Shown: positions 32,745 through 39,577 of the stretch, in pieces | How positions within the stretch are numbered: the stretch's first letter is position 1 | How the letters are laid out: every line of letters starts with the position of its first letter | IMG/VR virus record: IMGVR_UViG_3300010401_000014 | Location: 1 to 50,978 of that record | Reading direction: 5' to 3' (one strand) | DNA length: 50,978 nt | DNA from: a virus | Program-made: the position numbers and the translations under genes | Notes under the pieces: generated by a model | Database searches by the model: none | Told to the model about the DNA's origin: nothing | Seen by the model: the letters and a program-made list of their open reading frames with translations, nothing else

Positions 32745-32758
32745 ATCTCTTAATTTGG

Positions 32759-32831
32759 TATGCCCGGAAAGAATTGAACTTTCTACCTTCGTCTTATAAG
32801 GACGCCGCTCTAACCGATGAGCTACGGGCAT
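32759..32831 (-). tRNA. tRNA-Ile (anticodon UAU)
   Basis: A complete 73-nt cloverleaf: acceptor stem ATGCCCG/CGGGCAT (7 bp), D stem GCTC/GAGC with loop ATCGGTTA, and an anticodon loop CTTATAA giving anticodon UAU. The T stem is GAAAG/CTTTC with loop TTCAATT, and the discriminator is A. The lowest anticodon-stem pair is G-A. UAU reads AUA codons, which are common in this A+T-rich genome, so the tRNA can supplement a rare host tRNA. No CCA is encoded. Confidence 0.88.
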
Positions 32832-36864: not shown

Positions 36865-37650
36865 TCTTGTCTCATCTTATTAAATTTATCAACTCTTGAT
36901 TTATCTAGCAAGGGTTCATACGCTTCTGCTACATAATCATCTATGAGATATTTAAGATATGCCTACATGCTATTTTTACATCAATAATAATTTATAGTCT
37001 AATCCCCTGACCTAACCTCCGGGTAGCCGGCTCGCCTGGCGTCTCTAGCCATGCCATAATAGTACCACAAATCAGACCTAAAACAGCGCCTTCAGCAAGT
37101 TGCTATAGCAGCTAAGTCACCACACGAGGTACCTCACTACAGCTAATTGCTATAGGGAGCTAGCTCGTCACGCTCGGTACCGGCCACAACCATCCCGCTA
37201 ACTGGCATCAAACTTACTTGGAGGTTAGCTGGCATCTCTTTTGCTTACCATCCAACCCGGCAAGTCATGCCGCATTGCGGCAAATTGACGTCTTAGCGCG
37301 GCAAGCTCTAATGCCGCATTGCGTCATACCGTGCTTTTGGCTCACTACTGGTGTAGTGCGTGCTGTACACCGGGTGGAAACGCTACCCACCGAATCCTCG
37401 AGCTGGCCCTGCTCTAGAGCTCGCTGTGCCATCCTCCGACCTCAGCACGACCACCAGCACAGCCACCAGCAACCAGGGTCACACAGGCCTCTACAGCAAG
37501 CGCCACAGGGGAACGGATCCACCATGGGGATTGGCTCACTACCGTCGATCGCTGCGCTCCTAGCTGAGCTAACACAAGCTACAGCTGTAGGTATTCCCGC
37601 TCTGTATCACCTATGCTATCACCTGTTACCAAAGTGCTCATCCTGTAACA
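36865..37650. promoter_or_regulatory. Palindrome-rich non-coding control region
   Basis: Starting near 36990 this stretch is clearly richer in G+C than the flanking genes and has no convincing protein gene. Perfect palindromes include TGCTATAGCA (37101), GAGGTACCTC (37126), GAGCTAGCTC (37157), CGGTACCG (37175) and CTACAGCTGTAG (37579). It also has an inverted repeat TGCCGCA-T-TGCGGCA (37268-37282), with ATGCCGCATTGCG repeated at 37311, and a hairpin CACTAC/GTAGTG (37343-37358). The motif AGACCTAAAACA occurs here (near 37076) and again near 37731. An origin of replication or a multi-operator control region are the natural readings; the DNA cannot decide. Confidence 0.55.
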
Positions 37651-37654
37651 CGGC

Positions 37655-37780
37655 TGACAAAGAGTGTCAGTAGGTGACAAAAGTTGTCAGTACCCAGTGA
37701 CAAAGATTGTCAGCTTAGATCTGATCCTTAGACCTAAAACAAAGTGACAAAGTTTGTCAACTCTATGACACAAAGTGTCG
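37655..37780. repeat. Array of five 15-bp operator-like palindromes
   Basis: Four near-identical palindromes fit TGACAAARNTTGTCA: at 37655, 37675, 37698 and 37745. A fifth degenerate copy at 37766 reads TGACACAAAGTGTCG. Copies 1-3 start 20 and 23 bases apart, copies 4 and 5 start 21 apart, so sites lie near two helical turns apart on the same face. Single half-sites continue at about 37856 and 38084. A dimeric repressor, partition protein or initiator would bind such an array. Confidence 0.82.
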
Positions 37781-37964: not shown

Positions 37965-37993
37965 TTGACAGTCTCACGGTTCTAGGCTACGAT
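37965..37993 (+). promoter_or_regulatory. Possible promoter for the structured RNA
   Basis: Consensus -35 TTGACA (37965-37970), an exact 17-bp spacer and -10 TACGAT. Expected start near 38000. The upstream flank has CGGCCG (37952). The -35 also falls in an inverted repeat CAAGAC/GTCTTG (37938-37967), so the region could instead be part of a longer transcript. Confidence 0.5.
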
Positions 37994-37999
37994 TCGCGG

Positions 38000-38625
38000 A
38001 GTAGGAAACAGACGGTTTGAGGTTCGTTGAAAACCTAGAATCTAGAATGATTCGCACTAGTTTAGTTTATGTTGAACCAGTGTGACAAACTAGGAACAAA
38101 TCACATGCTCATTTATGCGTTTCCTAGAACGAAAAATGAGAAAGCGATAACGCAGTTACCGCCTAGCGCGAATCATCTTAGACTTTAGGTTTAGCAGGAA
38201 AAACAGGAGAAGAAAGCAAGCCTGAAAAGAACGATTGCGAAATCAGCGAAACGGCTAGACAGGATCTGTAAAGGTCCACGGAGCATGGAGTAGCTGTCAA
38301 AGTAGCGAAAGATCCTAGTAAGGCTTGACTTTCTCCTGTTTCGGTTCTTTGAAAATCAGCTCAGTATCGCGATAGGGATAACCCCGTCGCTTCACCTAAA
38401 ACTAGGTGGTGAAAAGGCGATACTGAAAAAAACAGTGTGTGGAAACTCATGCGCTAATGTTTGAAAGAAAGCATGATAATCTAAGCCAAATCATGCGCCT
38501 GTACTTAGCGGGAAAGTGTCAGTAATCGAATTAAAATCTGTTTCACGAATGCGTTGTGGACCTCGGAAAGCAACGTGCTAGTGAATGCTGGCGCCGCGTT
38601 AGCGCAGTAGCTTCCACATACTGAA
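38000..38625 (+). ncRNA. Large highly structured RNA candidate
   Basis: About 625 nt without a good open frame but with many perfect helices. Domain 1 is ATGATTCGC (38047) with GCGAATCAT (38168), extended by CTAG/CTAG. It encloses a pseudoknot, CTAGGAA (38090)/TTCCTAG (38121) interleaved with CTCATTT (38108)/AAATGAG (38134). Domain 2 is AAACAGGAGAA (38201)/TTCTCCTGTTT (38331), CAAGCC/GGCTTG and AGGATCT (38261)/AGATCCT (38310), with a GNRA-type loop GATT-GCGA-AATC. Domain 3 is TCAGTATCGC (38361)/GCGATACTGA (38417), with inner hairpins. Domain 4 is the 12-bp CAGTGTGTGGAA (38433)/TTCCACATACTG (38612), with GCATGAT/ATCATGC, TTCAC/GTGAA and others inside. The size and architecture recall ornate phage RNAs such as GOLLD and ROOL, but I recognise no family sequence. 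Confidence 0.78.
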
Positions 38626-38672: not shown

Positions 38673-38771
38673 ATGAATTACATCGTCGTAATTGGTAAAG
38701 ACGTTTACAAATTCAAAATGCGCTTCACTGCCGAGCTTTTTGCAAAGCATTTCGGTGCGAAGGTTTTTTAG
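38673..38771 (+). CDS. Short peptide after the structured RNA
   Basis: This 32-residue peptide (MNYIVVIGKDVYKFKMRF and on) is preceded by AAGGAATGAAAGA, a good ribosome binding site. It begins about 48 bases after the last RNA helix, so it may share its transcript. Basic, beta/alpha-like. Function unknown. Confidence 0.45.
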   Translation: MNYIVVIGKDVYKFKMRFTAELFAKHFGAKVF

Positions 38772-38977: not shown

Positions 38978-39111
38978 AGAATCCATCTAGCAGGGAATCC
39001 GTAAACATATCCGGAATCCTGCAAGAAACCGCAAAAGCCGCTAAACAGAAAGACGTGCAAATGAAAAATACCGCACAATTTTCTCAGCGGATTCCTTGCT
39101 ATATGGATTCT
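38978..39111 (+). other. Long inverted repeat/structured RNA element
   Basis: A 24-base strand at 38978-39001 pairs with 39088-39111. Fourteen of 15 positions pair in the outer part (AGAATCCATCTAGCA with TGCTATATGGATTCT) and all 8 in the inner part (GGAATCCG/CGGATTCC), separated by one mismatch. A repeated GGAATCC at 39013 could compete for the same 3' strand, which suggests a switch. The loop includes GTGC/GCAC and other pairs. It precedes the 104-residue gene and could act in its leader. Confidence 0.68.
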
Positions 39112-39182: not shown

Positions 39183-39497
39183 ATGGCCCGTCCAAAGGCG
39201 CAAGTAGAGAATGACGATTTCGATGCAGACCCGGATGCCGCTGCCGATGCAGCCGAGGAAACGTCAGATGACAAGCGTTCGCCAGAAGAGAAGTTTACGG
39301 CTGCCGCAAATCGACGTTTCAAGGTTTGGGTAGTTCGCACTCGCGCCATTGCAAAGCTTCACAGTAAGACTTACGGTTATTCGACGGATCAGGCGGAAAA
39401 GCTACTTACTGCGATGCAATCAGAATTCGATAACATGGCGACTCTTCTCCGCACTCGACCTGAGCGAGACGACGCCGCAACGCCAGACCTGTTCTAA
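39183..39497 (+). CDS. Acidic-Ala-rich small protein
   Basis: This 104-residue protein has an N-terminal Asp/Ala-rich part (DDFDADPDAAADAAEETSDDKRSPEEK) and a helical C-terminal part with VWVVRTRAIAKLHSKTYGYSTDQAEKLL. A good site AAAGGATGTATT precedes the ATG. It is far richer in G+C than genes on either side, matching the control region before it. Unknown function. Confidence 0.7.
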   Translation: MARPKAQVENDDFDADPDAAADAAEETSDDKRSPEEKFTAAANRRFKVWVVRTRAIAKLHSKTYGYSTDQAEKLLTAMQSEFDNMATLLRTRPERDDAATPDLF

Positions 39498-39514
39498 AAA
39501 CAGCATGTAGATTT

Positions 39515-39548
39515 GGCACTCCGGTAGTCAAAGGATTATCGGAGTGTC
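39515..39548. promoter_or_regulatory. Hairpin after the acidic gene
   Basis: A 9-bp stem GGCACTCCG/CGGAGTGTC (one G-U pair) with a 16-nt loop. No U-tract follows, so it is not a standard terminator; it could stabilise mRNA or act as an RNA processing site between the control region and the next genes. Confidence 0.5.
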
Positions 39549-39577
39549 GCTGTGTACATACTGGAAGGAATGCTAGA

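Follow-up and report, generated by a model that had tools for sequence, protein, structure and literature searches.

A candidate large multi-domain noncoding RNA with two boxA elements in the control region of a siphophage

Fold modelling indicates that the control region of a siphophage genome (IMG/VR record IMGVR_UViG_3300010401_000014; the whole stretch analysed, 50,978 nt, is called the window here) encodes a real large multi-domain noncoding RNA, NC1, which is neither GOLLD nor ROOL nor a member of any Rfam family. By analogy with those two families, we somewhat favor the reading that NC1 is a free-standing ornate phage RNA made by Nus-modified RNA polymerase. The elements new in this analysis, both identified in sequence, are the two boxA copies in NC1 and a promoter-boxA leader ahead of GOLLD and ROOL. 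The original prediction of a large multi-domain RNA, similar to GOLLD and ROOL yet outside both families, holds up, while its pseudoknot counts as possible and its roles in replication or late particles as suggestions.

As predicted, NC1 lies in the phage control region, a 2.3-kb noncoding stretch between divergent gene blocks. The left block, read leftward, encodes terminase, portal, protease, capsid and tape measure; the right block, read rightward, encodes helicase, a recombination-type protein and an exonuclease. NC1 adjoins early genes and is not in a tRNA island, the only tRNA of the window (32756-32831, minus strand) being 5 kb away, and small ORFs at 38673 and 38775 come after it. The site in the control region that best fits a sigma-70 promoter stops 7 nt short of 38000 and the last helix of NC1 closes at 38624, in good agreement with the boundaries originally drawn. 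Promoter-like sites overall are no more frequent in the region than in shuffles, and hence it is the place and quality of this site that count. We infer that NC1 is transcribed rightward from it. The palindromes farther upstream (Table 1) are a probable control site and are candidates for operators or partition sites; an ORF at 1018-2052 shows weak ParB_N similarity.

Several other elements of the window can be noted here. In the segment 38945-39160, the second structured element comes after AGCAAACAGACGG, which closely resembles the AGGAAACAGACGG found at 38003, where NC1 starts. A strong hairpin with a stem of ∼16 bp (GGCACTCCGGTAGTC...GATTATCGGAGTGTC, 39510-39560) lies just 3' of an ORF ending at 39497. 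The segment 37101-37640 is noncoding, with a G+C content of 52-59% against 35% for the genome. The idea that 36961-37640 is vector-like or palindrome-rich DNA was rejected, as the 16 six-base palindromes found versus 12 expected do not represent a significant excess. On the minus strand, 31443-31010 is a second candidate noncoding RNA. There, TTGACA-17-TATAGT, a consensus promoter, stands ahead of ∼400 nt that are rich in G+C, fold well (z -2.8) and contain no boxA.

Table 1. Predicted elements of NC1 and its surroundings, in window coordinates
Feature	Coordinates	Strand	Details
Five operator-like palindromes, TGACA...TGTCA type (TGACAA-n3-TTGTCA)	37655-37779		200-300 nt before NC1 promoter
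Sigma-70 type promoter, TTGACA-N17-TACGAT	37965-37993	+	10/12 consensus; putative start ∼38000
NC1, candidate large structured noncoding RNA	38000-38625	+	626 nt; fold z, no Rfam match, no ORF above 39 aa, A-rich loops
boxA1-like element, GTTCGTTGAAAA (GTTCgTTGAAAA at 38022)	38022-38033	+	one core mismatch; +23
Domain 1	38031-38192	+	long interrupted closing helix, 38031-38060/38163-38192, 83% complementary, 5' end inside boxA1; perfect 9-bp stem ATGATTCGC/GCGAATCAT, 38047-38055/38168-38176
Possible H-type pseudoknot	38090-38140	+	38090-38096/38121-38127 and 38108-38114/38134-38140
Domain 2	38201-38341	+	perfect 11-bp closing stem AAACAGGAGAA/TTCTCCTGTTT, 38201-38211/38331-38341; GUAA (GNRA) hairpin within
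boxA2, GTTCTTTGAAAA	38344-38355	+	exact match to Firmicute rRNA boxA; +345
Domain 3	38361-38426	+	perfect 10-bp closing stem TCAGTATCGC/GCGATACTGA, 38361-38370/38417-38426, 5 nt 3' of boxA2
Domain 4	38433-38624	+	12-bp closing helix CAGTGTGTGGAA/TTCCACATACTG (38433/38624), one G.U
Second structured element	38978-39111	+	same direction as NC1; 24-nt arms, z -5.3

Folded in silico, NC1 has a minimum free energy of -204.4 kcal/mol, compared to -160.9 ± 6.8 for dinucleotide-shuffled sequences (z -6.4). This comparison had been set beforehand as a check, and none of the 200 shuffles folded as well. In a scan of 338 windows covering all 51 kb, where the fold z averages -0.4 ± 1.3, those of NC1 rank second to fourth. 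Perfect stems of at least 7 bp number 23, against 9.7 expected and a maximum of 19 in 60 dinucleotide shuffles; three disjoint domains with perfect closing stems of at least 9 bp were seen in 0 of 60 such shuffles (mean 0.5). The claim that this density of pairings exceeds chance is thus upheld, as is the claim of a region without an open frame: no ORF starting inside NC1 is longer than 39 aa.

One could argue that the fold is a by-product of base composition or of overlapping inverted repeats in protein-binding DNA, with no functional RNA involved. Both strands of the NC1 region fold well (z -6.0 and -6.65), as expected of any long inverted repeat, and the G+C content of the region is 42-46%, compared to 35% for the genome. 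However, z was computed against dinucleotide-matched shuffles, the predicted loops are A-rich on one strand only (51% A in the sense orientation, compared to 40% U in the antisense), and the orientation of promoter and boxA fits the sense strand. A-rich loops are typical of known structured RNAs. We consider the by-product explanation highly improbable, the least likely of those weighed here.

All of the pairings listed in the original prediction were found in 38000-38625. Three of its four closing stems of 9 to 12 bp are perfect as described, but the fourth, the 12-bp helix of domain 4, is not, because of the G.U inside it. The GNRA-capped hairpin appears in the predicted fold of domain 2 (GGATCT-GTAA-AGGTCC, 38262-38277). 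For the pseudoknot, both strand pairs are present (CTAGGAA/TTCCTAG interleaved with CTCATTT/AAATGAG), but its reality is another matter. Of 60 shuffles, two contain an equally good pair, and the CTAGGAA/TTCCTAG stem has a weak nested hairpin as its competitor (-7.6 versus -1.4 kcal/mol, pseudoknot penalty excluded). For these two reasons, and with energy alone being indecisive, we conclude that the interleaved strands may, but need not, form a pseudoknot.

Against 4,227 Rfam families, those of GOLLD and ROOL included, NC1 gave no match either at the gathering score or at E ≤ 5, consistent with the earlier statement that no family could be recognized. When NC1 was compared by blastn with cultured phages and plasmids, the outcome was nothing or chance matches at E about 8. 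Covariance models built from the one available sequence for domains 1, 2 and 4, run over ∼2.5 Mb, returned the window itself and nothing else. With no relatives detected by either method, the fold is predicted from one sequence. The spacing of the two boxA elements was also tried as a homologue finder and abandoned, as the nine loci retrieved included no NC1 homologue. Two hints of distant kinship to GOLLD, a 13-mer (AAGCAAGCCTGAA) common to NC1 and locus L247 and the overrepresentation of AGTAGC (3 versus 0.27), were set aside as post hoc. No close IMG/VR relatives of the phage were found via its helicase, terminase, ThyX or the ORF at 39183. Alignment-guided searches yielded helicases with 37% identity and a protein of the recombination type with 43%, but the genomes carrying these otherwise have next to nothing in common with the window, making this phage an orphan. 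Kin of the helicase occur in phages of Streptococcus, Bacillus and Enterococcus (36-37%); this kinship, the boxA sequence and the TTGACA -35 hexamer are all compatible with a Firmicute host.

Across both strands of the 51 kb there is a single exact boxA sequence, at 38344, and forms with up to one mismatch occur three times, the one-mismatch sites being at 38022 and 33641. The sequences around the two elements of NC1, GGTTCGTTGAAAA at 38021 and GGTTCTTTGAAAA at 38343, nearly repeat each other. Counted from where the -35 hexamer begins, boxA1 ends after 69 nt. Under a first-order Markov model, a boxA that deviates at no more than one position and lies at the proper promoter distance, together with an exact boxA elsewhere in NC1, has a joint chance of ∼3e-8. 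Both elements sit next to closing helices, boxA1 overlapping the start of that of domain 1 and boxA2 just preceding that of domain 3. For reference, we inspected the leaders of 10 rRNA genes from five Firmicute/Tenericute genomes. The boxA core TCTTTGAAAA was present in all 10, 80-184 nt upstream of the 16S gene, and in two it also occurred downstream, on the side of the 16S-23S spacer. In boxA1, a G replaces the T found in every rRNA boxA inspected, and by our own alignment of positions this mismatch neighbors U-141 of E. coli, where the point mutation U-141G abolishes the complex (PMC10250234).

To see what follows such elements elsewhere, we searched 2.9 million viral contigs for the pattern TTGACA-N16-18-TAnnnT-N8-38-GTTCTTTGAAAA, with downstream sequence left unconstrained. 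At least 120 viral loci (L190-L309) carry it. Among the 120 loci listed, 89 have a boxA that ends 69-72 nt from the start of the -35 hexamer, a range that includes the NC1 value, and the Rfam matches directly 3' of promoter and boxA are GOLLD, ROOL, tmRNA and tRNAs. GOLLD accounts for 72 of these 120 (based on a profile from 11 Rfam-confirmed GOLLDs), although many listed loci are near-identical and distinct GOLLD leaders number 39. Its core lies 416-697 nt after boxA, on the same strand, in all 47 loci inspected. ROOL is found at two listed loci (L236, L296) and tmRNA at two others (L206, L257). In both ROOLs, boxA forms the 5' strand of the helix that closes the molecule, with 21-24 consecutive pairs. 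The first ORF of at least 40 aa begins a median of 510 nt after boxA, and within 60 nt in only 2 of the 70 loci sampled, indicating that promoter and boxA mostly head noncoding RNA. On this sequence evidence, the promoter-boxA combination in phages marks noncoding RNA units, mostly known ornate ones, and GOLLD and ROOL appear to use a leader like that of NC1. We found no paper linking boxA with GOLLD.

One caveat here is that these loci were selected for boxA and hence are uninformative on the share of GOLLD or ROOL that has it. Of three GOLLDs found without such selection, one carries GTTCTTTGAAAT where boxA would be expected; boxA is absent from the other two (L311 and L312, from Streptococcus phages), and therefore is not obligatory for such RNAs. 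Among the listed loci, tRNA clusters are also boxA-led, and at others (e.g. L205, L214, L241 and L269) boxA is followed by well-folding sequence with no Rfam match there. Two successive promoter-boxA units lie ∼330 nt apart on the reverse strand of L100 (5309-5750), the second with a GOLLD-type leader, and at L233 boxA and GOLLD lie farther apart (697 nt). In these two cases an extra small boxA-led RNA possibly precedes GOLLD.

The main rival to a free-standing RNA is that NC1 serves as the untranslated antiterminating leader of the early rightward operon, comparable to lambda nut or HK022 put, with boxA and structure rendering polymerase resistant to termination as it reads the genes from 38673 to 50.8 kb. 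The two roles are compatible with each other. In favor of this, NC1 follows the region's best promoter match and precedes the rightward genes, with operator-like palindromes just 5' of the promoter, two boxA elements, and further structure downstream. Moreover, the plus strand 3' of NC1 contains no intrinsic terminator up to 40.4 kb, so NC1 may not be a separate transcript. On the other hand, 626 nt in four compact domains far exceeds what antitermination needs, lambda nut and HK022 put sites being ∼60-75 nt, and the long boxA-to-ORF distances at the listed loci also speak against a leader role. Overall, we judge it rather unlikely that NC1 is a leader of this kind.

Alternatively, NC1 could be a structured replication RNA, a primer or regulator like ColE1 RNA II, at an origin in the 2.3-kb region. 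The large size of this noncoding region and its iteron-like palindromes would suit such a role, and RNA II is similar in size to NC1. But no replication-primer family in Rfam matches, the opposite strand offers no RNA I-like promoter beyond a weak 9/12 site, and boxA is not known to have a role in such systems. We view a replication RNA as very unlikely.

Returning to the free-standing RNA, NC1 is grouped with GOLLD and ROOL because of its size, phage origin, promoter, boxA distance, dense long-range helices and A-rich loops. Counting against this reading are the failure to find homologues, the core mismatch in boxA1, the lack of a plus-strand terminator after NC1, its location next to early genes instead of a tRNA island, and the existence of GOLLDs that have no boxA. 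In rRNA, boxA with NusB bound to it is proposed to keep hold of the 5' strand of the leader-trailer helix while the partner strand is still to come (PMC10250234). We envision that boxA of nascent NC1 would likewise bind host NusB-S10, as in rRNA operons, and that the Nus-modified polymerase would be shielded from Rho along this long untranslated RNA. Tethered at the RNA exit, boxA could hold the 5' strand of the next long-range helix until the distant partner emerges, aiding closure of domains 1 and 3. The product would most likely be stable, abundant and free-standing, and would work like GOLLD and ROOL.

We know of no function for GOLLD or ROOL, or of any explanation for their high output by phages. 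The promoter-boxA anatomy of the 74 listed loci suggests that transcription and folding of both are driven by boxA and Nus factors. It is quite possible, although we hold this more tentatively than the reading of NC1 itself, that phages have a general class of 'rRNA-style' units, in which a strong promoter and boxA precede a large ornate RNA that the host ribosomal antitermination complex makes and folds, with GOLLD and ROOL as two families and NC1, with its internal second boxA, as a third. If transcription and folding do run on boxA and Nus factors, mutating one 12-base element or depleting NusB would probe expression, folding and function at once; NC1 would be evidence that one common leader has been taken up by unrelated RNA sequences; and promoter plus boxA would offer a homology-free route to such RNAs in orphan phages.

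Like NC1, GOLLD (RF02032) is phage-encoded, large, ornate and noncoding, and in most of its 72 listed loci a sigma-type promoter is followed by boxA at 69-72 nt. NC1 shares this leader, which lies outside the Rfam definition, with a 69-nt spacing and one mismatch in boxA1. It differs from GOLLD in going unmatched by the model of the conserved 3' domain, also at E ≤ 5, in having no tRNA embedded or adjacent, in its early control region location, and in its second, internal boxA, seen in 0 of 63 GOLLDs among the loci listed. ROOL (RF03087) is also of phage origin, nearly the same size (611 nt in L236 versus 626), multi-domain with long-range helices, and boxA-led in both loci listed. NC1 does not match its covariance model, and whereas a single helix that includes boxA closes the whole ROOL molecule, NC1 has four separately closed domains. 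In one strain, ROOL is reported to be as abundant as 16S rRNA (PMC12286853). HK022 put and lambda nut, ∼10 times smaller than NC1, provide a precedent for one possible role, that of a phage early-leader RNA acting on RNA polymerase. Compared to the bacterial rRNA operon leader, NC1 has no rRNA, a boxA1 off by one base, and no boxB or boxC identified, but the two appear to be organized alike: boxA, or in NC1 a boxA-like element, comes soon after the promoter and boxA again further in (PMC10250234), the sequence of boxA2 is the same, and a long-range helix follows each copy.
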